Source of the DNA: Acidovorax sp. 210-6
GTDB taxonomy: Bacteria > Pseudomonadota > Gammaproteobacteria > Burkholderiales > Burkholderiaceae_C
Length of the DNA stretch: 64,000 bases
NCBI RefSeq assembly: GCF_010020825.1
Contig: NZ_JAACJE010000001.1
Location: 1,488,001-1,552,000 of the forward strand
Direction of reading: 5' to 3'
A program made the position numbers and the translations under genes. Shown here one piece after another: positions 21,128 to 38,534 of the stretch. The notes under the pieces were generated by a model, which was given only the letters and a program-made list of their open reading frames with translations, was not told the origin of the DNA and did no database searches. Each line of letters starts with the position of its first letter. Positions within the stretch are counted from its first letter, which is position 1.

Positions 21128-21841
21128 TCAGAACGTGCGCACCAGCGCCCCGGCCAGGCGGCGCAGCGGGGTGGTGTCCAGCAGCGTCCAGTGCCTCCGC
21201 TCGCCGCTGAGCCATTCACGCGCCTGCCACTGCGCCAGCAGGCGGCTCAGGGTTTCGGGGCGTATGCCCAGGTGGGCCGCCATCTGGCGCTGGCTGCCGG
21301 GCAGCTCCAGGCGGGGGCCCTGGTCGGCGGCCAGGCGCAGCAGGTAGGCGGCCAGGCGCTGGGGGGCGCTGCTCACGGTCAACCATTCCACCTCGTTGAT
21401 GTAGTGGTAGAGCCTGCGGCTGAAGTCCTCGAGCAGGCGCAGCGCCAGGGCAGGGTGGCTGGCGCAGGCCTGCTGCAGCATCTGCCGCTCCATGCGCCAC
21501 ACCGAGGTGCCACCCACGGCCCGGGCCTGCATGGGATAGCGGCCATGCGCCATGAACATGGCCACCTCGGCCACGCATTGGCCTGCGCCAAAGCGGTGGT
21601 ACACGCGCTCGTTGCCGTCGCAGCCAAAGCGCACCAGCTCCACATGACCGCGCTCCACCAGCAGCCAGTGCAGGGCAGGGTCGCCTTCGTGAAAGACCAC
21701 TTCCCCGGCCTTGTAGTGGCGCATTTCGGCACGCACGCACAGCCCCTGCAGAAGGTCGATAGGCAACTCGCGCAGCAGCGGGTGCAGGGCCAAGCGGTGG
21801 ATCACAAGCTGCGGCGAGCTCTGGATGTTGACAAAAGTCAT
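21128..21841 (-). CDS. Crp/Fnr-family transcriptional regulator
   Basis: The protein has 237 residues. The cyclic-nucleotide-binding-like beta barrel spans about residues 18-130 (HYKAGEVVFHEGDPALHWLL, FGAGQCVAEVAMF) and a C-terminal winged helix follows (GSQRQMAAHLGIRPETLSRLL). There is no cluster of N-terminal cysteines for an iron-sulfur centre and no clear cAMP-binding signature, so it is closest to the NnrR/Dnr/Crp-like branch. It is divergent from the first TonB receptor with a 63-base gap and likely controls the haem-type uptake cluster, which ends in nnrS. Signal and targets are inference. Confidence 0.85.
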   Translation of the reverse strand: MTFVNIQSSPQLVIHRLALHPLLRELPIDLLQGLCVRAEMRHYKAGEVVFHEGDPALHWLLVERGHVELVRFGCDGNERVYHRFGAGQCVAEVAMFMAHGRYPMQARAVGGTSVWRMERQMLQQACASHPALALRLLEDFSRRLYHYINEVEWLTVSSAPQRLAAYLLRLAADQGPRLELPGSQRQMAAHLGIRPETLSRLLAQWQAREWLSGERRHWTLLDTTPLRRLAGALVRTF

Positions 21842-21872
21842 TGTCGGATACAGGTGGTTTCTCGGATCATAT

Positions 21873-21890
21873 TGCAAATGCGAATTACTA
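21873..21890 (+). promoter_or_regulatory. Possible Fur-type operator
   Basis: TGCAAATGCGAATTACTA in the short divergent gap resembles a degenerate Fur box (hexamer pattern NATWAT/GCGAAT). Iron control of the TonB receptor would fit, but the match is partial. Confidence 0.3.
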
Positions 21891-21904
21891 CCAACAATAT
21901 TTAC

Positions 21905-24043
21905 ATGCAACCGATCCTCTCCCCGAACTCCACCGGCTTCGTCCTGCGGGCCACCGCCGGTGTAGTGCTGATGTCCGCCCTGGCTGCGCAGGCCCAGACC
22001 CAGAATGCGGCCAGCCTGCCTTCCGTCACCGTGCAATCGAGCCGCTCCAGCGCCGAAATGCCTGCGCGCAAAACACTCGAGCAAGAGCGCGAGCAACTGG
22101 CGCAGGTGCCCGGCGGCACCAACCTGGCCGAGCCGCAGAAAGAGGCGCGCCTGGCCACGTTGCGCGACGCGCTGGATTACCAGCCCGGCATCATGCTGCA
22201 GGACTTCTTTGGCGGCACCGACCAGCCGCGCCTGGGCATCCGCGGCTCGGGCATTCAGAGCAACCCGGTCAACCGCGGCGTGCTGCTGCTGCAGGACGGC
22301 CTGCCGCTGAACGAGGCCGACGGCTCCTTCATCATCGGCTTGGTCGAGCCGCGCAACGCGGCCTACATCAGCGCCCGGCGCGGCGCCAATGCCACCACGC
22401 CGGGCGCCACCACCCTGGGCGGCGAGGTGGACTTTGTCTCGCTCACCGGGGCCGACGAGCGCGGTCGCGTGCGCGCCGAAGTGGGCAGCTTCGGCCGCCA
22501 GGGACTGCAGGGCGCCGTGGGCGCGGTGGGCGAGCGGCTCGACGGCCGCGTGTCCGTCAGCAGCGACCGCTACGACGGCTACCGCCACCACTCCGCTTCG
22601 CAGCGCGATGCCTTGCAGGCCAACGTGGGCTTCCAGGGCGACGGTGGCTTCCAGAACCGCACCTACCTGAACTGGACCGACCTGGCCTTCCAGATTCCCA
22701 GCGTGGTGCCCAAGGATCGCGTCACCAGCAACCCGCGCGGCGTGATGGGCGACGGCAAGACGCCGCAGGACCAGTTGCTCAACGTGTACAAGCGCGACCC
22801 GCGCCGCGAGGCCTCGCAGTTGCGCCTGGCCAACCGCTCTACCTGGGGCAGCGAGGCCCTGCGCCAGGAAGTGGGCGTGTACTGGCAGGATACCGACGAC
22901 CTGTTCAACAACCAGACCAGCCACACCGTGACCCACAGCCGCACCCTGGGCGCGCAGTGGCAGGCCAGCGGCCGTCCGGGCGGGCAGGCGGGGGCCGTGG
23001 GCTGGCGCACCGCGCTGTCGTGGGCGCAAAGCCAGATGGAGCGCGACCTGTATGCCACCAACCCGGCCAACGGCCAGCAGATGCAGCGCTTTGGCTCCTA
23101 CGACCTGGATGCCCGCAACCTGCAGGCCCTGGCCGCTGCCGACTGGCGCGTGGCCCCGGGCTGGACGGTGCTGGGCAGCCTGCAGTGGAGCCAGATCACG
23201 CGCGACGCCGCCAGCCGCACCAGCGCGGCCCAGCTTGACCAAAGCTGGAATTTCGCCACGCCCAAGCTCGGCGTGAACTGGGACCTGTCGCCCGCCACGC
23301 GCCTGTGGGCCAACCTCAGCCGCAGCCAGGAGGCGCCCACCTACTGGGAAATCCTCAGCGCCACCGTGGCGCCCAACAACCCGGCTGCCGCCAGCGCCGA
23401 ACTGGTGCGCCTGAAGATGCAGCGCGCCACCACGCTCGAACTCGGAGGCCAGGGCCGCCTGGGCGAGGGCGCGCAGGCCCTGCAATGGAACGCGGCGGTC
23501 TACCGCAGCGTGGTCGCCGACGAACTCATCTCCACCACCGACGCCAACGGCATCAAGGTCGGCACCTACAACTACCGGGGCGGTACGCTGCACCAGGGCG
23601 TGGAGCTGGGCCTTGCGGGCAGCCAGCGCTTGGGCACCGGCGCGCTGGACTACCGCGCAAGCTGGACCTACAGCGACTTCCGCTTCCGTGCGGGCGAGTA
23701 CGCCGGCAAGCAGATCGCCGGCGTGCCGCGCCACCTGCTCAACGCCGAATTGATGGTGCGCATGGGTGCCTGGCGCTTCGGCCCCAACCTGCGCTGGGTG
23801 CCGGTGAGCACGCCCACCGACCACGCCAACACGCCGGGCACGCAGCAGGAGTCGTATGCGCTGCTGGGCCTGAAGGTCGAATGGCGCGAAGGCCCCTGGG
23901 CCGTGTACCTGCAGGCCGACAACGTGACCGACCGCCGCTACGCCAGCAGCTACGCCATCCGCAACCAGGCCACCGCCGCACAACCGGGCTACCTGCCCGG
24001 CCTGGGGCGCAGCCTCACCGCAGGCTTGACCTACAGGTTCTGA
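21905..24043 (+). CDS. TonB-dependent outer-membrane receptor 1
   Basis: The predicted protein has 712 residues. A signal peptide (FVLRATAGVVLMSALAAQAQ) is followed by a TonB-box-like segment (LPSVTVQSS), a plug domain (LRDALDYQPGIMLQDFFGG, RLGIRGSGIQSNPVNRGVLL) and a 22-strand-type barrel ending in the aromatic terminus LTYRF. Such receptors import iron chelates, haem, cobalamin and similar ligands using TonB energy. The ATG at 21905 is preferred; an in-frame ATG at 21878 is an alternative. It is the first rightward gene of the cluster and is divergent from the Crp/Fnr regulator. The ligand is not readable from sequence; the cluster context suggests haem or another tetrapyrrole. Confidence 0.88.
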   Translation: MQPILSPNSTGFVLRATAGVVLMSALAAQAQTQNAASLPSVTVQSSRSSAEMPARKTLEQEREQLAQVPGGTNLAEPQKEARLATLRDALDYQPGIMLQDFFGGTDQPRLGIRGSGIQSNPVNRGVLLLQDGLPLNEADGSFIIGLVEPRNAAYISARRGANATTPGATTLGGEVDFVSLTGADERGRVRAEVGSFGRQGLQGAVGAVGERLDGRVSVSSDRYDGYRHHSASQRDALQANVGFQGDGGFQNRTYLNWTDLAFQIPSVVPKDRVTSNPRGVMGDGKTPQDQLLNVYKRDPRREASQLRLANRSTWGSEALRQEVGVYWQDTDDLFNNQTSHTVTHSRTLGAQWQASGRPGGQAGAVGWRTALSWAQSQMERDLYATNPANGQQMQRFGSYDLDARNLQALAAADWRVAPGWTVLGSLQWSQITRDAASRTSAAQLDQSWNFATPKLGVNWDLSPATRLWANLSRSQEAPTYWEILSATVAPNNPAAASAELVRLKMQRATTLELGGQGRLGEGAQALQWNAAVYRSVVADELISTTDANGIKVGTYNYRGGTLHQGVELGLAGSQRLGTGALDYRASWTYSDFRFRAGEYAGKQIAGVPRHLLNAELMVRMGAWRFGPNLRWVPVSTPTDHANTPGTQQESYALLGLKVEWREGPWAVYLQADNVTDRRYASSYAIRNQATAAQPGYLPGLGRSLTAGLTYRF

Positions 24044-24121
24044 TTTTTTGATTTTCCGGTGCGCCCTTGCGGCCCGTGCCTCGGCGGCACCGGGCCGCGA
24101 TGGGCGTGGAGCACGACGACC

Positions 24122-25147
24122 ATGCACGATGATTTTCTGATCCCACAGGCCCCGCTTTCGCGCCGCCAGGCCCTGGCCTGGCTGGCCGCGCCCCTGGCCG
24201 CCGCGCCCGCGCTGGGCATGGCCGCGCCGCTGCCGCAGCTCACGCTGGCCGGGCCGCCCGCCATCGTCTCGGCGCCGCTGATCCACATGGCTGAAACCAA
24301 CGCATTGCAGGGCGTGGCGCAGCGCACCGTGTTCACTGCCTGGCGCGACCCCGACCAGTTGCGCATGATGGCCATGGGTGGCAAGGCCGACGTGCTGGCC
24401 ATGCCCAGCAACGTGGCCGCCAACCTCTACAACCGGGGTGCCGGGGTCGCATTGCTCAACATCTCCACCTGGGGCTCGCAGTGGATCGTCACGCGCGATG
24501 CGGCGCGCAAGACGCTGGCGGCTTTCAAGGGCGAGGAAATCGCCGTGCCCTTCCGGGGCGACATGCCCGACATCGTGCTGCAGCTGCTCGCGGCCAAGCA
24601 GGGGCTGGACCCGCTGCGCGACTTCCGCATCCGCTACGTGCCCACGCCCATGGAGGCCATGCAGTTGCTCATCACGCGCCGCGTCTCGCACGCGCTGCTG
24701 TCCGAGCCCGCCGTCTCGCTGGCGCTGCGCAAGACCCAATCCTTCCCCGTGGGCCTGATCGCGCCCGAGCTGCACCGGGGCGCCGACATGCAGCAGGAAT
24801 GGGGCCGCCTGTACCAGCGCCCCGCGCGCCTGCCGCAAGCGGGCATCGCCGCCGTGGGCGCCCTGCGCGCGCAGCCCGAGGCGCTGGCCGCCGTCACGCG
24901 GGCCTACGCGCAATCGCTGGCCTGGTGCCGCGACAACGCGATGGAGTGCGGCCGCATGATGGCCCGCCACATCGACCTGCTCACCCCCGAGGCCGTGGCC
25001 GATGCCATCGCCGTGAGCCAGATGGACGCCGTGCCCTTGCCGCAGGCGCGCGAGGAGCTGGAGTTTTTCTTCGGCCAGCTCATGGCGCGCAACCCCGGCT
25101 TGCTCGGGGGCAAGCTGCCCCCCGCCGCGTTCTACGCGCCCGGCTGA
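24122..25147 (+). CDS. ABC transporter periplasmic substrate-binding protein (NitT/TauT, NMT1-like)
   Basis: The protein has 341 residues. The N-terminus LSRRQALAWLAAPLAAAPALG is a twin-arginine-like signal peptide. The mature part follows the NMT1/SsuA-like pattern (MAMGGKADVLAMPSNVAANL, FRIRYVPTPMEAMQLL, VSHALLSEPAVSLAL). It should deliver a small ligand to the permease at 35596-36390 and ATPase at 36387-37253, the only other parts of such a transporter here, though they are 10 kb away in the same gene run. Its position between two TonB receptors suggests that the ligand enters through one of them. The ligand is unknown. Confidence 0.8.
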   Translation: MHDDFLIPQAPLSRRQALAWLAAPLAAAPALGMAAPLPQLTLAGPPAIVSAPLIHMAETNALQGVAQRTVFTAWRDPDQLRMMAMGGKADVLAMPSNVAANLYNRGAGVALLNISTWGSQWIVTRDAARKTLAAFKGEEIAVPFRGDMPDIVLQLLAAKQGLDPLRDFRIRYVPTPMEAMQLLITRRVSHALLSEPAVSLALRKTQSFPVGLIAPELHRGADMQQEWGRLYQRPARLPQAGIAAVGALRAQPEALAAVTRAYAQSLAWCRDNAMECGRMMARHIDLLTPEAVADAIAVSQMDAVPLPQAREELEFFFGQLMARNPGLLGGKLPPAAFYAPG

Positions 25148-25241
25148 AGCCGCCCGCTGTTTTTCCTTTTCTCGAATGCATCCCTGGCAGCCGCCGCCAC
25201 CTGGGTCTTCACTGGTTTTCTCGACTCAGGAGTTTTTCACC

Positions 25242-27233
25242 ATGGTTCTTGACGTTTCCCGTTCTCTCTCCCGTGGCGCCCTGGCGCGCCGCCCCGTGGC
25301 CCTGGCCGCGCTGCTGCTGCTGGCGGGCGCGCAGGCGCGGGCCCAGTCCGCCACGGCGCCCGAGTTGTTGGCACAGGCCTCCGCCACGGCGCTGCCCGCC
25401 GTCACCGTCACCGCCACCCTGGCCGAGCAGGACGTGCGCACCGCGCCCGCCAGCGTCACCGTGATCGGCCGCGAGGAGCTGGAGGCGCGCAACGCCGCAG
25501 ACCTGCTCGACGCCGTGCGCGGCGCGCCCGGCCTCACGCTCTCGCCGCGCCAGGTGGGCGGGCGCAAGACGCTGGCGCTGCGCGGCCTGGAGGGCAAGCA
25601 CACGCTCACGCTGATCGACGGGCGGCGCATCAGCGCCTCGGACGACGTGGTGGGCCACTCCGACTACCAGTACGGCTGGCTGCCCCTGTCGGCCATCGAG
25701 CGCATCGAGGTCATTCGCGGGCCCATGTCGGCGCTCTACGGCTCCGAGGCGCTGGGCGGCGTGGTCAACATGATCACGCGCCAGCCCAAGGACCGCTGGA
25801 TCGGCTCGGTCGGCATCACGGGCAGCAACCCCACCAGTGCCAGCGAGGGCGAGCCCACGGGCAAGGCCTCGGTGTTTGCCGCCGGGCCGGTGGGCGAGCG
25901 CCTCACGCTGCGCGTGAACGGCGAGGTCTCGCACGCCGCGCCGGTGGCGGACCGCAAGGACCCGCGCGTCTCCGAGATCGAGGGCCACCACTCGCAGGCC
26001 GGTGGCCTGAGCGCCAGCTTCGCGTTGACGCCGCAGCAAACCCTGGAGGCCGGCTGGACGGGCAAGAACGAGCGCCGCTTCTACGACACCACCTCCACCA
26101 CCAAGGGCGCCTACCGCAGCAGCTACGACATCGACCGCACGCAGGCCCATGTGGGCTGGGAAGGGCGCTTCGACCAGTGGCGCGGCCGTGTGCGTGCCTA
26201 CCGCAGCGAGATCGACATCGTCAACACGGCCAGCAACGGCGTGGCGCCCACGCGGCCGCAGAACATGACGGACGACGTGCTCGACGGCCACGCCAGCTTC
26301 AAGCTGGGCAGCCACCAGCTCACCGTGGGCGGCGAGTGGCGCGATGAAACCCTGGTCAACGCGGGCCTGAAGAACGGCAGCGACTCGGCCACGCACAAGG
26401 CCCTGTTCGTGCAGGACGAAATCGCCCTGACCGATGCGCTCATGCTCACCGCCGGCCTGCGCGCCGACAACCACCAGCTCTTTGGCAGCGAGCTGAGCCC
26501 GCGCGCCTACCTGGTGTGGGAGGCCAGCCCGGCGCTCGTCGTCAAGGGCGGCTTCGGCCATGCCTTCAAGGCGCCCACGCTCAAGCAGATCTCGCCCAAC
26601 TACGTGGGCGCCGAAGGGCCGCATACTTTCATGGGCAATGCCAACGTGAAGCCAGAGTCGTCCAACTCCTTCGAGGTGGGCGCCGACTGGCAGGCCGCGC
26701 CCGGCTGGACGCTGCGCGCGACGGCCTTCAACACCGAGGTGAAAGACCTCATCACGTACCGCCTGCTGAGCACTGTCGGTACGCGGCGTACCTACCAGTA
26801 CGACAACATCAACGCTGCGCGCATCCGGGGCCTGGAGGCGGGCGTGGCCTGGGACATCACCCGCGCCTGGAGCTGGAGCAACGACCTCACGCTGCTCAAC
26901 ACGCGCGACAAGACCACGGGCAAGAAGCTGGCCGATCGGCCCTCAAGCAGCCTGACCTCGCGTCTGGAGTGGAAGAACGCCAGCGGCTGGAGCGCCCGCG
27001 TGGCGGCCGAGTTCATCGGCAGCCAGACGGCCACCGACGGCAAGCCATTGCCTTCGTACGCGCTGTGGAGCGCCAGCGTGGGCAAGCAGATCGCGCTGGA
27101 CGGCCAGCGCAAGCTGGCGTTGCGCGCCGGGCTGGAAAACATCGGCAACGTGAACCTGGCGGAAAAGTCCGCCAGCTTCGGTTACGCCGAGCGTGCCCGC
27201 CGCCTGTTCGTGTCGGCGCGCGTGGATTTTTGA
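25242..27233 (+). CDS. TonB-dependent receptor 2 (FepA/BtuB-like)
   Basis: The predicted protein has 663 residues. A signal peptide ends near ALLLLAGAQARAQS, followed by the TonB box LPAVTVTATLAEQDV. The plug carries the family-typical ASVTVIGREELEARNAADLL, LRGLEGKHTLTLIDGRRIS and IERIEVIRGPMSALYGSEAL, and the barrel ends ARVDF. The ATG at 25242 has CAGGAG at 25227-25232. It resembles CirA/FepA/BtuB-type receptors and is the most likely equivalent of HmuR, since the CobN-like chelatase gene follows next. Ligand specificity is inferred from context. Confidence 0.88.
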   Translation: MVLDVSRSLSRGALARRPVALAALLLLAGAQARAQSATAPELLAQASATALPAVTVTATLAEQDVRTAPASVTVIGREELEARNAADLLDAVRGAPGLTLSPRQVGGRKTLALRGLEGKHTLTLIDGRRISASDDVVGHSDYQYGWLPLSAIERIEVIRGPMSALYGSEALGGVVNMITRQPKDRWIGSVGITGSNPTSASEGEPTGKASVFAAGPVGERLTLRVNGEVSHAAPVADRKDPRVSEIEGHHSQAGGLSASFALTPQQTLEAGWTGKNERRFYDTTSTTKGAYRSSYDIDRTQAHVGWEGRFDQWRGRVRAYRSEIDIVNTASNGVAPTRPQNMTDDVLDGHASFKLGSHQLTVGGEWRDETLVNAGLKNGSDSATHKALFVQDEIALTDALMLTAGLRADNHQLFGSELSPRAYLVWEASPALVVKGGFGHAFKAPTLKQISPNYVGAEGPHTFMGNANVKPESSNSFEVGADWQAAPGWTLRATAFNTEVKDLITYRLLSTVGTRRTYQYDNINAARIRGLEAGVAWDITRAWSWSNDLTLLNTRDKTTGKKLADRPSSSLTSRLEWKNASGWSARVAAEFIGSQTATDGKPLPSYALWSASVGKQIALDGQRKLALRAGLENIGNVNLAEKSASFGYAERARRLFVSARVDF

Positions 27234-27339
27234 AGAGGGGAGTGTGTGAAGCGATAAGGACTGTGCAATGAACCACCCCCGGCCTCCTCTCTGGTGGGGA
27301 CGCGAGCGCCGGGGTGTGCGCCACACCATGCCTGAATGC

Positions 27340-27400
27340 TACTAAAAACATAGCTGTTGGCGCTTGCTGAATAAGCGCCAGAGGCCAATTTCATTCAAAG
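27340..27400 (-). repeat. Dispersed palindromic repeat, family A (copy 1)
   Basis: Read on the minus strand it contains AAATTGGCCTCTGGCGCTT, then AAGCGCCAACAGCTAT, pairing GGCGCTT with AAGCGCC. The same core recurs at 31515, 48074, 51313 and 56333. It lies between TonB receptor 2 and the CobN-like gene. Confidence 0.65.
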
Positions 27401-27407
27401 AATTCCA

Positions 27408-30400
27408 GTGAACCCCCTGTCCCTTCTTCGCCGCTGGCTGGCGCTGTGCCTGCTGGCCTTTCTGCCTGTATGGCCCGTGGGCGTAGCGCAGGCGGCCTCG
27501 GTGCTGTTCATCGCCACCTCCAACGTGCCCCCGGGCAAGTTTCGCCTGCTGGCCGACATTGCGCGCCCGCACGGCATTGATGTGCAGGTGCGCTACCTGG
27601 GCAAGATCCCGGCCGATGCCGATGCCGGGCTGTTCCAGGGGCAGGACATGGTGTTCTTCGACACCTACCAGCAGGACGACGTGCGCCAGCACCTGGCCCG
27701 CGCACTGCCCGGCCTGCGCGCGCCGCACGCCTGGCTGTACGACGCACGCCCGGCCTGGGGCGGTGGGGTGAACGAAGCCCTGGGCCGGCGCCTGGCCCAG
27801 TACTACAGCAACGGCGGGCGGCAGAACTTCGAGGGCTTTGTGGCCACCGTGGCTGCCTATTTGAAAGGCCAGAGCGCACAGGGCGTGCCCGACCCGGTGA
27901 TCTTCCCCAAGACGGCGGTGTACCACCCGCGCGCGCCCGGCCAGGTGTTTGCTGACCCGCTGGCCTACCTGCGCTGGGCGGGGGTGGACCCCACCGACCC
28001 GCAGCGCCGCCCCGTGGTGGCGCTGGCCGTGCACCAGCAGTACATCGCCTCGGTGCAGGCCGACTACATCGACGACCTCATCGCCCGCATCGAGGCCGCA
28101 GGCGCCGTGGCGCTGAGCTTCTACAGCCCCATGATGGACGCGGGCAGCCTGGACCGCATGCTGCGCCCCCAGGGCAAGGCGCTGGCCGACGTGCTCATCA
28201 ACACCCAGATCATGCTCATGCCCGAGATGCGCCGCGCCGAGTTCGAGCGCCTGGGCATCCCCGTGCTGCAGGCCATGACCTACCGCCGTGGCGACGCCGC
28301 GCACTGGCAGGCCAACCCCCAGGGTGTGCCGCTGATGGACGTGCCGTTCTACCTTGCGCAGGCCGAATACGCGGGCGTGACCGACATCCAGGTGGCCTCG
28401 GCCAGCGGCGTGGGCGACGCGCCCATCGCCACCATTCCCGCCCAGGCCGACGCCGTGGTCGGCAAGGCGCTGCGCCTGGTGGCGCTGCAGCGCAAAGCGA
28501 ACGCCGACAAGCGCCTGTCGGTGTTCTTCTGGAACTACCCGCCGGGCGAGAAGAACCTCTCCGCCTCTTTCCTCAACGTGCCGCGCAGCCTGCAGACCAC
28601 GCTGGCCGCGCTGCGCGCCCAGGGCTATGACACCGAGGTGCCGTCCGAGCCCGAACTCATCGCCAAGCTCCAGCGTCTGCTGGCCCCCGCCTACCGCGCG
28701 GGCGAGCTGGAACCCCTGCTGCGCGAGGGCCTGGCCGCGACCGTGCCCGTGGCGCGCTACCGTGCCTGGCTGGGCCAGCAGCCCGCCGCCGTGCAGACTG
28801 CCTTGCGCGAGCGCTGGGGCGAGCCCGAGGCGTCTTCCATGGTCTTGCGCCAGGGCGGCCAGGCCATGTTCGTGGTGCCGCGCCTCATGCTGGGCAAGAT
28901 CGCCCTTCTGCCGCAGCCGCCGCGCGGCGACAACGAGCCCAGCGAAGTTGCGGCGCAGGCTAACGCCGGCGAAGCTGGGGTTAAGCCGCAAAGCGGCGGC
29001 CGAAGCCAAAAGTGGGTGTCCAAGGAAAAAGCCCTCTACCACTCCAGCAACGCCTGGCCCTCGCACTACTACCTGGCCGCCTACCTGTGGGCGCGCGAGC
29101 AGCAGGCCAGCGACGCGCTGGTGCACTTCGGCACGCACGGCAGCCAGGAATGGCTGCCCGGCAAGGAGCGCGGCCTGTCCGTCTCTGACCCCGGCATGCT
29201 CGCCGTGGGCGACCTGCCGGTGGCCTACCCCTACATCGCCGACAACATCGGCGAGGCCCAGCAGGCCAAACGCCGGGGCCGCGCCGTCATCATCAGCCAC
29301 CAGACGCCGCCCTTCAAGCCCGCCGGGCTGCACCAGGCGCTCACCCACATGCACGACCTGCTGCACGCCTGGGTGGCGCAGGACGAGGGCGTGGTCAAAG
29401 ACAAGATCAAGGCCGACCTGCTGGCCGCCGCCGCCAAGGAGCGCATAGCCCTCGACATGGGCTGGACCGCCGAGCGCGCCCGCGCCGAGTTTCCCGCCTT
29501 TGTCGATGCCTTGCACAACCAGTTGCACGAGCTGGCCGAAACCGCCCAACCCCTGGGCCTGCACACCCTGGGCCGCGCGCCCGAGGCCCAGCACCGCCTG
29601 GCCACCGTGCTGCTGATGCTGGGCCGCCCGTTCTGGGAGGCCGCCTGGCTGCACGCGGGCAAGCCCGCCGCCGATGCCGATGAAGCCCTGCTGACCGACT
29701 ACGACAAGCTCCCCGGCACCGCGCCCTACCAGTTGCTGCAACGCCATGTGGTGCAGGGCGAAAGCACGCAGGGCTTGAGCGCCCCGCTGCGCGAGGCTTT
29801 GGACAAAGCCCGCACCTGGTACGCCGCCATCGGCGCCGACCAGGAGCTGCCCGCGCTGCTCACCGTGCTGGCGGGCCGCCACCTGCCCACGTCCTACGGC
29901 GGCGACCCCATCAAGAACCCCGACGCCTATCCCACGGGCCGCAACCTCTACGGCTTCGACCCCTCGCGCGTGCCCACCAAGCAGGCCTGGGCGGCAGGCA
30001 AGGAGGCAGCCGAGCAGCTCATTGCCGAGCACCGGCGCCTCACCGGCAAGCAGCCCAAAAAGCTCGCCGTGTCGCTGTGGTCGGTGGAGACCATGCGCCA
30101 CCAGGGCCTGCTCGAAGCCCAGGCGCTGTGGCTGCTGGGCACCGAGCCCGTGTGGGACGAGGGGGGCCGCGTCACGGGCGTCAAGCTCGTGCCGCGCAAA
30201 GAGCTGGGCCGCGAGCGCGTGGACGTGGTGCTGTCGGCCACCGGCCTGTACCGCGACCACTTCCCCAACACCATGAAGATCCTGGCCCAGGCCGCGCAGC
30301 TGGCCGCCCGCGCCACGGGCGACGGCGACGAGGCCAACCCCGTGGCCGCCCACACCCGCGCCATCGCCGCGCGCCTGCGCGCCCAGGGCCTGCCCGACAA

Positions 30401-31538: not shown

Positions 31539-31573
31539 TGGATAAGCGCTAACAGCTATCAAAATAATAGCAA
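31515..31573 (+). repeat. Dispersed palindromic repeat, family A (copy 2)
   Basis: AAATTGGCCTCTAGCGCTTG, a short spacer and AAGCGCTAACAGCTAT, ending just before the ATG of TonB receptor 3. The arms TAGCGCTT and AAGCGCTA pair. It overlaps the last codons of the CobN-like gene. Confidence 0.7.
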
Positions 31574-33706
31574 ATGCCTAGTTTTATATCTGCCCATGCC
31601 CGCCTGCTGGCCGCCGCGGTGTGCGCTGCCTGCGCGGCCCCCGTGCTGGCGCAGCAGCCTGCACCGGCATCTCCACCGGCCAGCGCGCCCGAGCGCCAGC
31701 TGGGCGAAGTCACCGTGCGCTCGGCCAGCAGCGCCATGGAAGACCAGCGCAACGCCGCCACGCAAAAGACCATCATCGACCGCAAGGAGATCGAGGCCCT
31801 GGGCGGCCTCACCGTGGGCGAGCTGATCCGCAAGCTGCCCGGCATCGACGCGGGAGAGCACGGCGCCGATGGCGGCATGAACGCCCGCGCCCGGGGCATG
31901 TCGCGCGACGGGGTGCAGTTCCTCGTCAACGGCGAGCGGCCCACGGCCAATGCGCGCTTTGCCCTCACCGAGGTGGGCCGCATGCCCTCGGGCGAGCTGG
32001 AGCGGGTGGAGATATTGCGCGGCGGCTCGGCCGAGTTTGGCGGCGCCGCGCCCGTCACCGTCAACCTTGTCATGCGCCGCCCGGTGGCGCGCGCGGCCAC
32101 CAGCGTCAAGCTGGCCGTGGGCCAGCGTGGCAGCCTGGCCAACGGCCAGTTCACCGCCAGCCACGGCGGGGGCGAAGGGGGCTTTGGCTGGCTGCTGCCG
32201 CTCACGCTCAACCGCCACGCCATGCCGGTGGACCAAAGCAGCACGCGCACGTTGGCGGGCGGCGCACAGCATCAGAACGTGGTGCAGGACGCGGAGCAGG
32301 GCCGCTACAGCATCAACGAATTCATCCTCTCGCCGCGCCTGGCCTGGCGCGGTGCCACGGGCCAGTTCACGCTGTGGCCCAGCCTGTACTACAACGAGGG
32401 CGACCGCGCCACGCACACCGTGCGCTCGGACGGAACGCAGCGCCACGACAGCGAAGACAACAGCACCCGCATTGCCCGCCTGCGTGGCGAGGCCGAATGG
32501 CGCGCCTGGGGCGGCAAGTGGACGGGCCGCGCCGCCGCCATGCAAGGCCAGCGCAACGCCGATCGCAATCGACTGGGCACGGGCGTTGCATGGCAAGAAA
32601 CCGAGCGCCGCGAAGACCGCGAACACAGCGCATCGCTGCGCTACGACCGGCCCGTGGGCGAGCACCTGCTCTCGGTGGGCCTGGACGCCGCCAGCCACCG
32701 CCGCGACGACTGGCAGGCCCTGAGCGGTGCCTACGCCAGCGACACCCGCTTTGCAGGCCGCGCCCGCCAGGGCACGCTGTGGCTGCAGGACGAATGGCAA
32801 TTGGCCGAGGCGCTCACGCTCACCAGCGGCCTGCGCGGCGAGCGCATGGCCATCCAGGCGCAGGAGCGCGACAGCCGCCACGGCGCGGTCGATCCGTCGC
32901 TGGCCCTGCGCTGGGAGGCGGCGCCGGGCTGGGTGGCGCGCAGTTCGCTGTCGGGCGCCATCCGCTTCCCCAAGCTCGACGAACTCACGCGCGTGGCCTC
33001 GCGCAGCACGCTGGCCAACACCCCGCTGGAGCCCGACCGGGGCGGCAACCCCTGGCTGCGGCCCGAACGCGTGGCCAACCTGGAGGCCGGGCTGGAGCGC
33101 CATGTGCCCGGCGGCGTGTGGGGCATCAACACCTACCTGCGCCGCACGCAGGACTTCATCGAACGCCGCACGCTGTGGGAGGCCGGGCGCTGGGTCGAAC
33201 GCCCCTTCAACGAAGGCGACGCGCGCCACTGGGGGCTGGAGCTGTCGGCCAAGCTCACGGGCGAGGCGCCCTGGCTGCAGGGCCTGATCGGCCGCCAGGG
33301 CAGCGTGCGCGCGCAGTTCACGCTGCCGCGTGGCGAGGTTCAGGATGCCGTGCTGGGCCTCACCCGCGCCCCGCGCGAGCTGCCGCGCTACCAGTTCACG
33401 CTGGGCTACGAGGGCAGCCTGCCTGCGTGGCAATCCACCTGGGGCTTTCAGTGGCAGCACCAGGCCGCCCTGCGCACCCAGGTGCCCGGCGAGGTGCAGG
33501 CCACCACGCAATCGCGTAACCTGCTGGATGCACACTTCGTGCGCCGCCTCACGCCCGCGCTCAACCTGCGCCTGTCGGTGCAGAACCTGCTGGGCACCAG
33601 CACCTGGCGCACGGCTTCGTCCGCCCAGGGCGGCCAGCCCTGGGCGCTGACCACCAGCGACCATGGCCAGCGCACCTGGCTGCTGGCGCTGGAAGGCAAG
33701 TGGTAA
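31574..33706 (+). CDS. TonB-dependent receptor 3
   Basis: The predicted protein has 710 residues. The signal peptide (ARLLAAAVCAACAAPVLAQ) is followed by a Pro/Ala linker and a TonB-box-like LGEVTVRSA. The plug has LGGLTVGELIRKLPGIDAGE and LERVEILRGGSAEFGGAAPV, and the barrel ends in LLALEGKW, with the terminal tryptophan accepted in place of the usual phenylalanine. The plug is shorter and less typical than in receptors 1 and 2, so it may serve a different ligand form. It follows the CobN-like gene by only 35 bases that hold a repeat. Ligand unknown. Confidence 0.85.
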   Translation: MPSFISAHARLLAAAVCAACAAPVLAQQPAPASPPASAPERQLGEVTVRSASSAMEDQRNAATQKTIIDRKEIEALGGLTVGELIRKLPGIDAGEHGADGGMNARARGMSRDGVQFLVNGERPTANARFALTEVGRMPSGELERVEILRGGSAEFGGAAPVTVNLVMRRPVARAATSVKLAVGQRGSLANGQFTASHGGGEGGFGWLLPLTLNRHAMPVDQSSTRTLAGGAQHQNVVQDAEQGRYSINEFILSPRLAWRGATGQFTLWPSLYYNEGDRATHTVRSDGTQRHDSEDNSTRIARLRGEAEWRAWGGKWTGRAAAMQGQRNADRNRLGTGVAWQETERREDREHSASLRYDRPVGEHLLSVGLDAASHRRDDWQALSGAYASDTRFAGRARQGTLWLQDEWQLAEALTLTSGLRGERMAIQAQERDSRHGAVDPSLALRWEAAPGWVARSSLSGAIRFPKLDELTRVASRSTLANTPLEPDRGGNPWLRPERVANLEAGLERHVPGGVWGINTYLRRTQDFIERRTLWEAGRWVERPFNEGDARHWGLELSAKLTGEAPWLQGLIGRQGSVRAQFTLPRGEVQDAVLGLTRAPRELPRYQFTLGYEGSLPAWQSTWGFQWQHQAALRTQVPGEVQATTQSRNLLDAHFVRRLTPALNLRLSVQNLLGTSTWRTASSAQGGQPWALTTSDHGQRTWLLALEGKW

Positions 33707-33734
33707 GCGTATTCACCCACACACAAGGTTTCCC

Positions 33735-34637
33735 ATGGCACCGCAAGCAAGTTCATTCCCTCTTCGTCACCTGACCGTTGCACTGGCCTGTGCGGGCCTG
33801 GCGCTCGCGCTGGCAGGCTGCGCCGGCGCGCCGCCGCAGGCCGCCGCGCCGCGCCAGCCTCAGGGCCAGCCGGGCTACTCTGCCCAGGCGGCCCAGGCCA
33901 CGCAGCCTGCGCTGGCGCAGTATTCGCTGGTGCACGCCGCGCACCTGCCGCACCTGGCCTGGGCGCTCAAGGGCCAGACCACGGCGCTGGCCCTGAACGA
34001 GGTGCAGCGCGGCACCCTGGCGGCCCTGGCCTTCGAGGTGCGCGACCAGTTGCAGCCCCGGCTGGAGCAGGCCCGCGCCGCGGAGCAGGACATCGCCCAG
34101 GCCGCGCTCGCAGGCGCCAGCGTGCAGCAGTTGGCCGCACGGCTGGACCGCCTGCAGCAGCTCAAGCGCGAGGCCGCGCAGGCGCAGATCGACGCCACCC
34201 AGCGCATCCGTGCCACGCTGGACGCCGCCCAGTACCAGCAACTGCGCCAGCGCGCGCTCGCCCTGGCGCCAGCCGCGCCCGCCATGCCTGAATACTCGCT
34301 GCTGCTGCCCGCCCACCTGCCGCACCTGATGCCTTATGTGCCCCAACTGGACGCATCGGCCGAGCACCGGCAGGCCCTGTCGCGCCATGCCGACGAGCAG
34401 GTGCGCCCCGCGCTGCGCCCGCGCCTGCAGCAGGCCCAGCAACTGGAGCAGGAGATTGCCCGCGCCGCGCTCGATGGCCGCAGCGCGCAAGACCTGGCGC
34501 CCCAGCTCGACCGCCTGGCCCAGCTCAAGCGCGAGGCGGCAGAAATCCACCTGCGCTGCATCGCCCAGGTGCGCCAGACCCTGCCGCCCGGCCAGTACGC
34601 GCGCCTGCTGGCGCTGGCCCAGCCCGCGGCGCGTTGA
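33735..34637 (+). CDS. Lipoprotein with two Spy/CpxP-like repeats
   Basis: The protein has 300 residues. A lipobox LALAGCAG places a lipidated cysteine near residue 24. Two homologous units of about 110 residues follow. Unit 1 opens QYSLVHAAHLPHLAWAL and unit 2 opens EYSLLLPAHLPHLMPYV; both continue with EQ(D/E)IA(Q/R)AAL, LDRL(Q/A)QLKREAA and a late QYxxLxxLA motif. The helical, glutamine-rich pattern recalls CpxP/Spy periplasmic proteins. The paired H-x2-H-L-P-H clusters could bind metal or haem. Inside this cluster it occupies the slot of an HmuY-like accessory lipoprotein, but that functional match is inference. The outer or inner membrane location cannot be decided. Confidence 0.7.
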   Translation: MAPQASSFPLRHLTVALACAGLALALAGCAGAPPQAAAPRQPQGQPGYSAQAAQATQPALAQYSLVHAAHLPHLAWALKGQTTALALNEVQRGTLAALAFEVRDQLQPRLEQARAAEQDIAQAALAGASVQQLAARLDRLQQLKREAAQAQIDATQRIRATLDAAQYQQLRQRALALAPAAPAMPEYSLLLPAHLPHLMPYVPQLDASAEHRQALSRHADEQVRPALRPRLQQAQQLEQEIARAALDGRSAQDLAPQLDRLAQLKREAAEIHLRCIAQVRQTLPPGQYARLLALAQPAAR

Positions 34638-34676
34638 TCCACTTTCCCATATCACGATTTCACGGAGTTTTTTCGC

Positions 34677-35213
34677 ATGAGCCATTTGCTTGAATCCCTG
34701 ATGTACCAGGCCAGCCAGGTCTTTCTGTTCCCCACCCTGGTGGTGATTGCCGTGCTGTTCGTCTATGCCTTCTTTCTGTTGGGCATGTTTGCCATGCAGT
34801 GGTGGCAGCGCCGCCAGGGGCAGGGCGGCCAGCCCACGCGCGGCCACCACCTGCTGGCCTGGGCGCAGGCCCAGCCCGGCGCCAGCGCCGACGAACTGGA
34901 CGTGAAGGCGCACCAGTTGCTGGAACTGCCGCGCATCGCCACGCGCGTGGCGCCCATGCTGGGGCTGATCGCCACCATGATCCCCATGGGCCCGGCGCTC
35001 AAGGGCTTGTCGGACGGCAACCTGGGCCAGGTGTCGGACAACCTGGCAGTGGCCTTTGCGGCGGTGATCCTGTCGCTCATTGCCGCCGCCATCACCTTCT
35101 GGGTGGTGTCGGTGCAGCGGCGCTGGCTGGCCGAGGAACTGGTGTGGCTGCAGCGCCAGGGCGTGCGCACCCCGGCCGCAGGCCACCTGGCCGAAGCAGG
35201 GAGTGAAGCATGA
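34677..35213 (+). CDS. MotA/TolQ/ExbB-family proton channel protein (HmuT-like)
   Basis: The protein has 178 residues and three predicted membrane helices: LVVIAVLFVYAFFLLGMF near the N-terminus, APMLGLIATMIPMGPALKGL in the middle and LAVAFAAVILSLIAAAITFW near residue 130. The spacing and the conserved small-residue helix fit the TolQ/ExbB/MotA family. With the DUF2149 protein, which it overlaps by 4 bases, it probably makes a dedicated ExbB-ExbD-like motor for the CobN-like or TonB-dependent step. The ATG at 34677 has ACGGAG upstream. Confidence 0.85.
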   Translation: MSHLLESLMYQASQVFLFPTLVVIAVLFVYAFFLLGMFAMQWWQRRQGQGGQPTRGHHLLAWAQAQPGASADELDVKAHQLLELPRIATRVAPMLGLIATMIPMGPALKGLSDGNLGQVSDNLAVAFAAVILSLIAAAITFWVVSVQRRWLAEELVWLQRQGVRTPAAGHLAEAGSEA

Positions 35214-35596
35214 AATTCCTCGACGAAACCGAAGCCGACGACCCCATCCTCTCGGTCGTCAACCTCATCGACGTGTTCCTGGTGGTGATCGCCGCGCTGC
35301 TCATCACCGTGGCCAAGAACCCGCTGCTCAGCCCTTTCTCCAAGCAGGACGTCACCGTCATCACCGACGCGGGCAAGCCCACCATGGAAGTGATCCAGAA
35401 GCGCGGCGAGAAGATCGAAAAATACAAGGCCAGCGGCGAGATCGGCGAGGGCGACGGCGAGAAAGCCGGCGTGGCCTACCGCATGAAGGACGGCTCCATG
35501 GTCTATGTGCCCGAAGGCGGCGCGGCGGACCAGGCCACAGCCCCTGCACCCCTCAACAACCTGGGCGCAGCCCCCGGCGGCATGGGGCCTCGCTGA
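35210..35596 (+). CDS. DUF2149 protein, ExbD-like (HmuU-like)
   Basis: The protein has 128 residues. A short acidic N-terminus (MKFLDETEADDPILSVVNLI) leads into a single membrane helix with an aspartate at its start (LIDVFLVVIAALLITVAKNP), as in ExbD/TolR. A small periplasmic domain (VTVITDAGKPTMEVIQKRGE) follows and the end is Pro/Ala-rich. DUF2149 proteins accompany CobN-like and MotA/ExbB-like genes in Bacteroidetes hmu loci and in archaea. It overlaps both neighbours, 4 bases with the ExbB-like gene and 1 base with the permease, so all are coupled. Confidence 0.85.
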   Translation: MKFLDETEADDPILSVVNLIDVFLVVIAALLITVAKNPLLSPFSKQDVTVITDAGKPTMEVIQKRGEKIEKYKASGEIGEGDGEKAGVAYRMKDGSMVYVPEGGAADQATAPAPLNNLGAAPGGMGPR

Positions 35597-36390
35597 TGCT
35601 GCGTGTGCTCTGGCGCGTGCTCTCGGGCCTGCCCGCCTACCTGTGGAGCGGCTGGGGCGCGGCCGCCAGCCTGTTGCTGCTGCTGGCCACCTGGGAGGCC
35701 GTGGCCGCGCTGTACGACCCGCTCATCCTGCCCGACCCGCTCACCGCCTTTGCCGCGTTGGGGGCGCAGGTGCAGCAGGGCGCCGCCGGGCCCGCGCTGT
35801 GGGCCACGGCGCGGCGCGCCTTCATGGGGCTGGTGCTGGCGCTGGGCGTGGGCAGCGTGCTCGGGCTGTTGGCGGGCCTCTCCGTCACGGCCTCGGTGCT
35901 GTCGCGCCCGCTGGTCACGGTGCTGCTGGGCACGCCGCCCATCGCCTGGCTGGTGCTGGCCATGCTGTGGTTCGGCATGAGCGACGGCACGCCCGTGTTC
36001 ACCGTGTTCATTGCCTGTTTCCCCGTGGTGTTTGCCAGCGCGCTGCAGGGCACGCGCACGCTCGATTTGCAGCTGCGCGACATGGCGCGCGCCTACCGTC
36101 TGCCGCTGGGCATGGCGCTGCGCGAGGTGTATGGGCCGCATGTGCTGTCGTACCTGTTCCCGGCCTGGGTCACCGCGCTGGGCAGCGCCTGGAAGGTGGC
36201 CGTGATGGCCGAGCTGCTCGCCAGCACCGACGGCGTGGGCGCCGCGCTCGCGGCCAGCCGCTCGCAGCTGGACACCGCCACCACCCTGGGCTGGATCAGC
36301 GCCGTGGTGGGCTGCCTGCTGGTCGTCGAATACGGATTTTTGGAACCGCTCAAGCGCGAAGTCGAACGCTGGCGGGAGGCGCCGCGATGA
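35596..36390 (+). CDS. ABC transporter permease (NitT/TauT, SsuC-like)
   Basis: The protein has 264 residues with about six membrane helices. It carries the BPD-permease EAA-like loop (LDLQLRDMARAYRLPLGMAL, then EVYGPHVLSYLFPAW). Related transporters import nitrate, taurine, sulfonates or thiamine precursors. The start is set by a TGATG junction with the DUF2149 gene. It is coupled to the ATPase by an ATGA overlap. Its partner binding protein is probably the one at 24122-25147. The substrate is unknown; cluster context suggests a tetrapyrrole or a metal-related ligand. Confidence 0.85.
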   Translation: MLRVLWRVLSGLPAYLWSGWGAAASLLLLLATWEAVAALYDPLILPDPLTAFAALGAQVQQGAAGPALWATARRAFMGLVLALGVGSVLGLLAGLSVTASVLSRPLVTVLLGTPPIAWLVLAMLWFGMSDGTPVFTVFIACFPVVFASALQGTRTLDLQLRDMARAYRLPLGMALREVYGPHVLSYLFPAWVTALGSAWKVAVMAELLASTDGVGAALAASRSQLDTATTLGWISAVVGCLLVVEYGFLEPLKREVERWREAPR

Positions 36391-37253
36391 GTTTGCTGCT
36401 TCAAGACGTGCGCCACAGCTACGCGCTCACCGAGGTGCTCGGCGGCGTGGGCCTGGCACTTGCGCCTGGCCATGTGCTGGCGCTGGTGGGACCCTCGGGC
36501 TGCGGCAAGACCACGCTGCTGCACCTGTGCGCGGGCCTGCTGGATCTGCAGGAGGGCCGGCTGGACAACGCCTTTGCCAATCCCGCGCTGATGTTCCAGC
36601 AGCCGCGCCTGCTGCCCTGGCAGACCACCGCCGACAACATCGCCCTGGGCCTGCGCGCGCAGGGCCTGGCGCGCGCCGCCGCGCGTGAGCGCGCCCACGC
36701 CATGGGCGCCGTGCTGGGGCTGGACCTTGAAGCCCTGGCCGCCTACCCGCACCAGTTGTCGGGCGGCATGCAAAGCCGCGCCGCGCTGGCGCGCGCCCTG
36801 GTGCTGGAGCCCGATGTGCTGCTGATGGACGAACCCTTTGCCGCGCTCGACATCGGCCTCAAGGCGCAACTGCACCGCCTGCTGCTGCGCCACCAGCGCG
36901 AGAAGGGCACGGCCGTGCTGATGATCACGCACGACCTCATGGAGGCCGTGCGCCTGGCCGACACCGTGCTGGTGATGGCCGCCGGGCCGGGTCGCATCGT
37001 GCACCGGCACAGCCCGCCAGCCCCCGCCCTGGCGCGCACCGACGCCATGGTCTACCACGACACCGCCGAGCTGCTGCGCGTGCCCGCCGTGCGCGCGGCC
37101 TTCGGGCTCGATGCGCTGGTGGACGAGGGTACCTGCCTGGCCGATGAATTCGCCGACACCCTGCCGCCGCCCGAGGCGCGCGTGCTGCCCCTGCAGCCGC
37201 TGCCGCAGGAAGGCAACGCCACCCCCACCGCGCGGAGGATGCGATGCGGATGA
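36387..37253 (+). CDS. ABC transporter ATPase (NitT/TauT family)
   Basis: The protein has 288 residues. Walker A GPSGCGKTT, Q-loop FQQPRLLPWQ, signature LSGGMQSR, Walker B VLLMDEPFAAL and the switch histidine in LMITHDL are all present and intact. It energises the permease encoded just upstream, to which it is joined by a 4-base overlap. A C-terminal extension of about 60 residues after the ATPase core has no recognised domain. It overlaps the start of nnrS by a few bases. Confidence 0.9.
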   Translation: MSLLLQDVRHSYALTEVLGGVGLALAPGHVLALVGPSGCGKTTLLHLCAGLLDLQEGRLDNAFANPALMFQQPRLLPWQTTADNIALGLRAQGLARAAARERAHAMGAVLGLDLEALAAYPHQLSGGMQSRAALARALVLEPDVLLMDEPFAALDIGLKAQLHRLLLRHQREKGTAVLMITHDLMEAVRLADTVLVMAAGPGRIVHRHSPPAPALARTDAMVYHDTAELLRVPAVRAAFGLDALVDEGTCLADEFADTLPPPEARVLPLQPLPQEGNATPTARRMRCG

Positions 37254-38476
37254 CCGCCCCCGTGATGACCCCGCCCGGCCTGCTGTCGCTTCAGCACCCG
37301 GTCTGGATGTGTGCCATGCGCCCCTTCTTCCTGCTCACCATGGGCTCTGCCGTGCTGCTCATCGCGCTGTGGAGCGCCGTGCTGGCGCTGGGCCTGCCGC
37401 CGCCGCCCGTGGCGGGCGGCGCGCTGGTGTGGCACGCGCACGAGCTGCTGCTGGGTTTTGGCCTGGCGGCGGTGGCGGGCTTCGTGCTCACCGCCGTGCC
37501 TGAGTTCACCAATACCGCGAGCGCCAGCCCGCGCACCGCGCGCCAGCTGGTGCTGCTGTGGCTGCTGGGCCGCGCTGGCTTCTGGCTCTCGGGCGTGGCG
37601 GGCAGCCCCGCGCTGGCGCTGGCCGCCTTGGCGCACCTGGGCCTGGCGGGCAGCCTGCTGGCGCTGCTGTGGCCCGCGCTGCGCACCTTGGCCGGGCGGC
37701 GCCACCACGCCTTTGGCTGGGCGCTGGCGGGCCTGTTCGTGCTGGTGGCAGGCTTCTATGCCGATGCACTGCGCGGTGCCTACCCTATGCGCTGGCTGCT
37801 GGCCCTGCTGGGCCTGGTGATGGTGCTCATCATCGTGGCCATGAGCCGCATCTCCATGCGCATCGTCAACAACGCCATCGACCAAACGGGCGAGGGCCGC
37901 GAGCCCTACCTGGCCCGCCCGCCCCGGCGCAACCTGGCCATTCTGTGCATCGCGCTGTTCACGCTGGCCGAGTTCGTGCAACCGGGCGGCCGCGCCAGCG
38001 GCTGGCTCGCCTGCGCCGCCGCCGCCGCGCTGTGCAACCTGATGGGCGACTGGCACGTGGGCCGCCCGCTGCTGCGCCGCCTGCCGCTCATGCTCTACGC
38101 CGTGTACGCCTGCATGGCGCTGGGCTACGCCCTCATCGGCACGGCCCTGCTCGCGGGCGGGCCGGGTATGGGCGCGGGGCGCCACCTGCTCACCGTGGGG
38201 GCCATCGGACTGTCGATCTACGCCGTGATCTGCATCGCCGGGCGTGCGCACTGTGGCCATCCGTCCGACGGACGGCCCTGGGTGGCGCACGGCGCGGTGC
38301 TCATCGTGGCCGGGGCGGTGCTGCGCGCGGGTGCGGCCTTTGCGCCGGAGGCGGCTTCAGCTCTGCTGGGCCTGGCCGGGCTGTGCTGGGTGGCGGCGTT
38401 CGGGCTGCTGTGCTGGCGCATGGCCCCGGTGCTGTGGCGTGTGCGGCCGGATGGGTTGTGGGGGTGTCAGGGGTAG
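37244..38476 (+). CDS. nnrS: NnrS family haem- and copper-containing membrane protein
   Basis: The predicted protein has 410 residues and about 12 membrane helices. It shows NnrS landmarks: an N-terminal segment with HPVWMCAMRPFFLLTMGSAV, WHAHELLLGFGLAAVAGFVL, and conserved late segments including FTLAEF and CIAGRAHCGHP. NnrS proteins bind haem and copper and help cells cope with nitric oxide during denitrification. GGAGG at 37234-37238 fits the ATG at 37244; the ATG at 37250 (ATGA overlap with the ATPase stop) is an alternative. As the last gene of the uptake cluster it links it to haem and nitric oxide physiology. Its 3' end is partly duplicated at 39838-40028. Confidence 0.9.
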   Translation: MRMTAPVMTPPGLLSLQHPVWMCAMRPFFLLTMGSAVLLIALWSAVLALGLPPPPVAGGALVWHAHELLLGFGLAAVAGFVLTAVPEFTNTASASPRTARQLVLLWLLGRAGFWLSGVAGSPALALAALAHLGLAGSLLALLWPALRTLAGRRHHAFGWALAGLFVLVAGFYADALRGAYPMRWLLALLGLVMVLIIVAMSRISMRIVNNAIDQTGEGREPYLARPPRRNLAILCIALFTLAEFVQPGGRASGWLACAAAAALCNLMGDWHVGRPLLRRLPLMLYAVYACMALGYALIGTALLAGGPGMGAGRHLLTVGAIGLSIYAVICIAGRAHCGHPSDGRPWVAHGAVLIVAGAVLRAGAAFAPEAASALLGLAGLCWVAAFGLLCWRMAPVLWRVRPDGLWGCQG

Positions 38477-38534
38477 GCGGCTGGCCTGTGCAGAAGCCGC
38501 CGGGGCCAACGTGCTGCGGGCTTGCGGATGCTTG

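Follow-up and report, generated by a model that had tools for sequence, protein, structure and literature searches.

A predicted Fur-controlled operon in Acidovorax sp. 210-6 that joins a CobN-like/ExbB-like/DUF2149 core to an ABC importer and NnrS

Introduction

Three described systems resemble the gene cluster that is our subject, which lies at positions 21,128–38,476 of a 64 kb stretch of the Acidovorax sp. 210-6 genome (this whole stretch is called the window below) and encodes TonB-dependent receptors, a CobN-like protein of family PF02514, an ExbB-like protein, a DUF2149 protein, an ATP-binding cassette (ABC) importer and NnrS. The first is the hmuYRSTUV operon of Bacteroidota with its de-chelatase HmuS (PDB 9d26). 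As described in the available text of the 2025 HmuS paper (PMC12583661), it shares with the window an exported, membrane-held PF02514 protein, an ExbB-like and a DUF2149 protein, a TonB receptor and a link to iron; the same text says that until then no direct demonstration of biological de-chelation existed, and leaves the roles of many members of the superfamily unassigned. The second is BtuS1/BtuS2 of Bacteroides fragilis (Bacteroidota). In the available part of that report (PMC6460266) the double mutant grows poorly with haem as sole iron source but still released protoporphyrin, and a de-chelatase activity of the two proteins themselves was not demonstrated. The third is PA1922–PA1925 of Pseudomonas aeruginosa, which, like the window, encodes a CirA-labelled receptor, a CobN-like protein, a DUF2149 protein and a channel protein (there labelled ExbD). 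This set is under Zur control, in contrast to the predicted Fur control in the window, and no NnrS or ABC genes are named for it in the available passages of the two sources (PMC4542158, PMC9431628).

NnrS is described in other settings. As far as the available parts of the papers go, it protects the iron pool of Vibrio cholerae from dinitrosyl iron complexes (PMC9246220), belongs to several regulons that respond to nitric oxide (NO; PMC1274295) and seems to be controlled by NtrYX during iron depletion in Paracoccus (PMC9409073). Searches of the open-access literature pointed, among the papers listed, to none that joins NnrS to a CobN-like uptake operon. We also know of no case of NnrS inside an iron-chelate uptake operon. 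Here we propose, with a probability of roughly 60%, that the cluster encodes a Fur-controlled, low-oxygen- or NO-associated system that takes iron from an imported chelate, possibly haem.

The CobN core and the NnrS genes lie in one predicted operon

The cluster is an NnrS module (Fnr, first receptor, substrate-binding protein, permease, ATPase and NnrS) with a CobN core (second receptor, CobN-like, ExbB-like and DUF2149) nested in it. Gene identities were taken from gene calls and Pfam profile matches. Positions 21,905–38,476 form one co-directional run on the plus strand, translationally coupled in part. It opens with the TonB-dependent receptor (TBDR) TBDR1 (21,905–24,043), a NitT/TauT-like ABC substrate-binding protein (24,122–25,147), the CirA-class receptor TBDR2 (25,176–27,233, with a possible alternative start at 25,242) and the CobN-like chelatase or de-chelatase (27,408–31,538; PF02514, 952.6 bits). 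There follow TBDR3 (31,574–33,706), a predicted lipoprotein (33,735–34,637), the ExbB/TolQ-like proton-channel protein (34,677–35,213; PF01618, 30.5 bits), the DUF2149 protein (35,210–35,596; PF09919, 100.8 bits), the ABC permease (35,596–36,390; PF00528, 48.9 bits), the ABC ATPase (36,387–37,253; PF00005, 85.8 bits) and NnrS (37,244–38,476), which PF05940 matches over its full length at 253.2 bits (cut-off 28). All three receptors matched PF00593 and PF07715. A Crp/Fnr-family regulator is divergent from the run (21,128–21,844, minus strand; PF00027, 70.1 bits; PF13545, 62.2 bits) and has the residues E-T-L-S-R in its helix-turn-helix region. The gene calls and Pfam matches bear out every gene type that an earlier note on this DNA had named from the letters, and the profile searches proposed there for the CobN-like, ExbB-like and DUF2149 proteins confirmed their families.

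The genes of the 3' half are tightly packed. The ExbB-like and DUF2149 genes overlap in ATGA at 35,210, as do the permease and ATPase genes at 36,387; the DUF2149/permease junction is TGATG at 35,596, and nnrS starts (37,244) within the ATPase gene. All junctions from the ExbB-like gene to nnrS overlap, which suggests that translation of the core is coupled to that of the ABC/NnrS genes. The earlier note had called the cluster fused, which is right for operon linkage through overlapping genes and for no other sense of the word. The plus-strand gene order is kept in named relatives, so the arrangement is not due to chance.

Relatives of the cluster

We compared the window with two sets of genomes. 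Among 100 genomes of the family, host included, close relatives of the CobN-like protein (at least 58% identity over the best segment) occurred in nine and of the binding protein (at least 52%) in seven; three genomes had both, contiguous in all three. The second set consisted of the best 80 of 484 CobN-like matches from one scan of genome contigs. By name, nearly all of these 80 loci are from Betaproteobacteria and all are within Pseudomonadota; some of the genera are known denitrifiers. The closest annotated relative was a plasmid of Diaphorobacter sp. HDW4A, which carries the entire cluster, its Crp/Fnr gene included, together with a cupin gene, and whose CobN-like protein is 92.3% identical. 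Further near relatives by CobN-like identity were Comamonas granuli (L055, 90%) and a Giesbergeria metagenome-assembled genome (93%); Simplicispira lacusdiani (L057) carries the operon as well. We also weighed whether the window and the Diaphorobacter plasmid have a mobile element in common and rejected this, since DNA matches outside the cluster were short. The Crp/Fnr regulator was also found in eight NnrS-type loci and in L066 among the 80 loci.

The two modules were arranged in three ways. The complete NnrS module stands alone in genome G003 (L151). The modules lie side by side, in either order, in L039, L063, L084, L106 and L117, and the binding-protein and permease genes enclose the CobN core in the window, L036, L043, L055–L061 and L070; L106 and L061 both stop after the permease. 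TBDR3 and the lipoprotein form an optional 3.1 kb cassette, missing in L055, L057 and L059.

Gene counts were restricted to the 59 loci that extend at least 3 kb upstream and at least 9 kb downstream of the CobN-like gene, which excluded 21 loci. Anywhere in these loci, ExbB-like and DUF2149 genes were each present in 57, ChaN in 18, TBDR3 in 14, the binding protein in 12, NnrS in 10 and ferritin-like genes in nine (two other ferritin-like genes were confirmed by Pfam). The receptor immediately upstream, typed by its best BLAST match in a reference set, was of PhuR type in 36 loci and of CirA type in 20, with none found in three. ChaN occurred in 18 of the 36 PhuR-type loci and in 0 of the 20 CirA-type loci, and NnrS in 3/36 and 7/20, respectively; the window belongs to the CirA-class subtype without ChaN. 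A comparison with solved structures gave PhuR for the two members tried (L042, 310 bits; L087, 332 bits), and ChaN was confirmed by Pfam for two (L042, L045). FtrABCD-like iron genes adjoin one NnrS module.

Other genes near the core were noted by eye: a gene like that for ribosomal protein S4 (RpsD) beside it in 13 of the 80 loci (e.g. L082:6640-, L106:17158+), and Imelysin-like and DUF1513-like genes in six loci each (e.g. L112, L114, L116, L127), which would fit an iron regulon.

Predicted Fur control

Motif discovery with a palindromic model and no prior consensus was run on 72 upstream regions, from 70 of the 80 loci and two regions of the window. It returned AATGaGAATnATTCtCATT, which we take to be a Fur box, with a log-likelihood ratio of 491.2, compared to 40.0, 42.4, 41.5 and 46.0 in four block-shuffled sets (run with 25 starts, the real set with 50). 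The motif exceeded 8 bits in 48 of the 72 regions. In the window, a predicted Fur-box-like operator, AATGCGAATTACTACCAAC (21,877–21,895, plus strand), lies 9 bases 5' of the TBDR1 start. With the matrix learned from relatives it scores 15.9 bits, more than any other position of the window, and about 2000 random segments of 220 bases all stayed below 14.4 bits. Thirteen other NnrS-type promoters, eight from close relatives of the window and none used in training, were scored as well: 12 had a site of at least 16.3 bits, and the single miss, L039, begins inside the receptor region. Among the 12 are the standalone module L151 (26.7 bits) and L155 (23.2 bits). The presence of Fur-type boxes in the window and its relatives means that the system is probably iron-linked, and the operon is probably switched on by iron shortage. 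Iron control is predicted both for the CobN core and for the standalone NnrS module.

The claim of an expanded CobN-like/ExbB-like/DUF2149 uptake system tied to NnrS stands, with the predicted Fur box as its link to iron. A site for the Crp/Fnr protein itself was also looked for. An FNR-like dyad over the regulator start codon, found by eye, agrees with an FNR consensus at 7/10 positions in the window and L155 and at 8/10 in L036, L043 and L151; among 3000 random 125-base segments, 18% (536) reached 7 and 1.6% (49) reached 8. Given this background, and since the dyad may be conserved merely because it overlaps a coding region, we do not claim it as an FNR site.

The CobN-like protein differs from HmuS

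The earlier note had seen in the window a cluster of the Bacteroidetes Hmu type, so we compared its CobN-like protein with HmuS. The PF02514 match covers residues 131–1247 of 1376. Hydropathy indicates an N-terminal signal (residues 11–29) and, past a Pro/Ala linker, a weaker C-terminal stretch (1342–1360), such that the protein is predicted to be exported and anchored at its C-terminus. Among solved structures HmuS was the best match (362.9 bits), followed by ChlH (314.2) and CobN (307.5). The chelatase-superfamily motif HFG(T/A)HG, which holds HmuS His538, is kept as HFGTHG at residues 573–578. In contrast, the HmuS motif LSLDHxxEFMGG is replaced by LTTDDPFQYLGG, with Asp and Gln at the positions of His1209 and Glu1212. 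Ile-Met-Leu aligns (by eye) with the neck residues His254-Gly-Arg, and no His-Gly-Arg occurs in the aligned stretch. The methionine-rich insertion of domain IV is missing, with 67 residues between aligned stretches compared to 228 in HmuS, and at the head ligand Met79-Gly80 the head domain of the window protein aligns unreliably. In an alignment of 109 rows, TDDPFQYLG occurs in 89 and SDDPFQYLG in 10. TDHPFEYLG is found only in a paralogue of the host genome (L004) and an Azospirillum protein, and LDHVYEFMG in an Aureibacter protein whose gene adjoins one annotated as HmuY.

A tree of the 109 rows (none dropped; quick method, with Shimodaira–Hasegawa-like approximate likelihood ratio support, and unsafe for deep joins among long rows) groups the window protein with CirA-type Comamonadaceae within a largely betaproteobacterial clade. 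With the HmuS residues and insertion missing, no HmuY among the Pfam matches of the cluster proteins and all of the best 80 of 484 relatives in Pseudomonadota, the Bacteroidetes label does not hold. Compared to the hmu operon, the window also adds receptors, the ABC importer, NnrS and the Crp/Fnr regulator.

The L004 locus (C2:3484000-3503900) is ordered TBDR, ExbB, ExbD, TonB, CobN-like, ExbB-like, DUF2149 (TBDR, ExbB and CobN-like by Pfam; ExbD and TonB by eye), and its ExbB-like and DUF2149 proteins matched those of the window by BLAST at 46% and 68%.

What is imported

A haem de-chelatase proper, as in Bacteroidota, would import haem and have the CobN-like protein convert it to protoporphyrin IX and Fe(II). 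We regard this as a plausible reading, though at somewhat below even odds. It draws on the closeness to HmuS, on the conserved HFGTHG and on the relatives, 18 of 59, that pair the same kind of CobN with a PhuR-class receptor and ChaN. When 24 CirA-type CobN proteins were compared with 19 from PhuR-type loci with ChaN, the checked motifs were common to both with small changes (the fourth letter of NNFWGW varies), and column 87 alone separated them at the thresholds used, being Tyr in the CirA type and His in most PhuR-type rows. This Tyr/His column could be a ligand switch or plain descent. Against haem stand the Asp/Gln and neck replacements, the missing insertion and HmuY, and the window receptors, whose best matches lie outside the haem class: TBDR1 is nearest to YncD/PqqU among solved structures, TBDR2 is CirA-like, and TBDR3 had weak matches only. 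The haem proposal of the earlier note is supported indirectly, by the company the same CobN keeps in relatives and not by the receptors of the window or the ChaN count of its own subtype. The Asp-His..Glu motif of HmuS is kept in the host by the L004 paralogue instead.

The best match of TBDR2 points elsewhere. It matched CirA nearly over its full length (2hdf, 284.7 bits), then PirA and FepA, while haem receptors scored no more than about 100 bits. A catecholate-type siderophore could therefore enter by this receptor, with the CobN-like protein or the ABC importer handling the ferric siderophore; the predicted Fur box and the lack of ChaN in all 20 CirA-type loci agree with this. We think it rather unlikely. 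PF02514 is, as we understand it, a family of tetrapyrrole chelatases, the catalytic motifs largely match those of the PhuR/ChaN group, and the CirA label is also carried by PA1922, which belongs to a Zur operon.

That last operon raises a further reading, in which zinc, nickel or cobalt is the metal, as has been proposed for PA1922–PA1925, a Zur-controlled set with the same gene types in the accessible portions of PMC4542158 and PMC9431628. Related sets also occur in NikR and hyp contexts. For the window this is improbable: the motif in this group of loci is of Fur type rather than Zur type, and iron genes are among the neighbours. Scans with consensus sequences, run with no background, gave at best 9/16 for Zur in the window promoter and 8/12 for NikR in the promoters. 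The L004 promoter gave no good Zur or NikR match with these consensuses, and no Fur-type site was found in the L004 and Azospirillum promoters with the matrix used above.

Accidental co-location of the NnrS/ABC module and the CobN core would fit with both being also found apart. It is less probable still, because the modules occur together in three arrangements and both orders, in different lineages and with Fur boxes in common, and because they are contiguous in each of the three family genomes that hold both.

Finally, the protein could be a cobaltochelatase subunit of cobalamin synthesis. PF02514 finds three genes in the 4.2 Mb host genome: the window gene, L004 and L005. We read L005 as a B12 salvage cluster with a TonB receptor, CobB, CobP, BtuFCD, CobN, CobO and CobD (CobO, CobD and the receptor by Pfam, the others by eye from translations). 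Its CobN belongs to a different clade, which has 10 rows and 100% support; gene context in this clade is unchecked for most rows, and row L038 adjoins ExbB-like and DUF2149 genes. The clustering with cobalamin CobN that was named beforehand as a refutation is thus not seen. As the earlier note had said, no cobalamin-synthesis genes are nearby: none was found among the 19 flanking window proteins scanned, and open reading frames of at least 70 residues in the window matched the host B12-cluster proteins by BLAST only at the superfamily level (receptor, ABC ATPase, CobN). The cobaltochelatase reading is hardly tenable, since its points in favour, a match to NF004644 (cobaltochelatase subunit CobN) at 1376.4 bits, above the cut-off of 1248, and a table of PMC7857532 that files the related protein PA1923 under cobalamin, as cobN2, are outweighed by a TIGR02257 score of 469.4 bits (cut-off 822.05), the separate clade and the gene context. 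Export is no argument against it, because the B12-cluster CobN of the host (L005:8897-13054) also has a signal-like N-terminal stretch, as if exported.

Proposed mechanism

For iron uptake from an imported chelate, we envisage the following sequence. In iron shortage Fur would leave the predicted site at 21,877, and the divergent Crp/Fnr protein may add an oxygen or NO input. The TonB receptors would carry the chelate into the periplasm, where the CobN-like protein, anchored C-terminally on the periplasmic side, would strip the metal. The cytoplasmic ATPase partners of CobN and ChlH could not be used in the periplasm; we therefore propose the ExbB-like and DUF2149 proteins as the drive, powered by the proton-motive force. 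The DUF2149 protein has one predicted transmembrane helix, in which Asp21 is invariant in 37 of 37 rows, and its comparison with ExbD by hhalign gave E 0.0003 and a probability of 39% over 19 columns, a single helix. The place of this protein and the ExbB-like one beside an exported chelatase, together with the invariant membrane aspartate, suggests a proton-driven stator that replaces the ATPases of CobN/ChlH. Fe(II) would then enter by the single FeoB of the host, and the ABC importer may serve the same task by carrying a small molecule, possibly the ligand once freed. NnrS would prevent dinitrosyl iron complexes from arising in the iron pool during denitrification. The host itself appears to be a denitrifying betaproteobacterium, judging by a full-length NosZ and by six match rows for genes of the cytochrome cd1 family, which lie in two regions.

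Several observations weigh against this reading. The window Fur site is weaker than most training sites, and 24 of the 72 upstream regions have no motif above 8 bits. The NnrS module occurs without a window-type CobN in G003, G086, G094 and G095, so the tie between NnrS and CobN is not obligatory. The likeness of DUF2149 to ExbD rests on that single helix; its outer part is predicted, with low confidence, to be all-strand (predicted local distance difference test score, pLDDT, 57.3), and a fold search found no ExbD fold at E 0.001. Related CobN/ExbB/DUF2149 sets adjoin nikR on an Azospirillum brasilense plasmid, lie between hypF and hypCDE on a Runella slithyformis plasmid (L135, with a receptor and a urease-accessory-like gene) and belong, according to the available parts of the papers, to a Zur operon in P. 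aeruginosa (PMC4542158, PMC13083405, PMC9431628). With NikR, hydrogenase-maturation and Zur contexts, the core as such is not iron-specific.

These same contexts lead to a more general idea, which we offer tentatively and think doubtful as it stands: the CobN-like/ExbB-like/DUF2149 core may be a general proton-driven machine for stripping metals in the periplasm, its stator replacing the ATPases, which different lineages use for different metals and which is here wired into an iron-and-NO operon. If so, it would serve iron under Fur here, zinc under Zur in Pseudomonas and nickel with NikR or hyp genes, and taking iron and protecting it during denitrification would be joined in one transcription unit. 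As the group is common in Betaproteobacteria, with a Fur-type signal and with haem-type and CirA-type receptors round one core, substrate and mechanism can be tested by comparison, and the link to NnrS offers a testable reason for joining iron scavenging and NO handling.

Accessory genes and flanking regions

The substrate-binding protein had weak, sub-cut-off matches to PF02621 and PF13379 and 41 bits to 3hn0, and searches of NCBIfam, Pfam and the PDB for what the importer carries gave superfamily-level matches only. The duplication in the lipoprotein, claimed in the earlier note, is real: its two helical repeats are identical at 34 of 62 positions between the halves (E 2e-12). No Pfam family matched it, its predicted model is all-helical and of low confidence (pLDDT 56.8), and a fold search gave no match at E 0.001. 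From L-T-P-E-Q-like motifs in the L130 homologue, we infer that it may be Spy/CpxP-like.

On the left flank, the window has two integrase genes and a ParM/StbA-like gene (9,663–11,039, 15,561–16,583 and 19,561–20,841), and homology with relatives ends at about 21,048, beside the second integrase. On the right, modA-like DNA follows in L055, L057 and L059 about 0.3–2 kb past the stretch in common with the cluster. The window has 4.7 kb (38,478–43,195) there instead, with a Fic gene, an open reading frame of no assigned function (40,154–41,728), an IS3-type transposase (by eye), an ALIL element (42,099–42,215) and, at roughly 39,823–40,029, a duplicate of the 3' end of nnrS. Further away are a heavy-metal P-type ATPase with HMBD domains (12,104–14,830) and, on the minus strand at 58,185–58,338, a match to the ZMP/ZTP riboswitch near a serine hydroxymethyltransferase gene.

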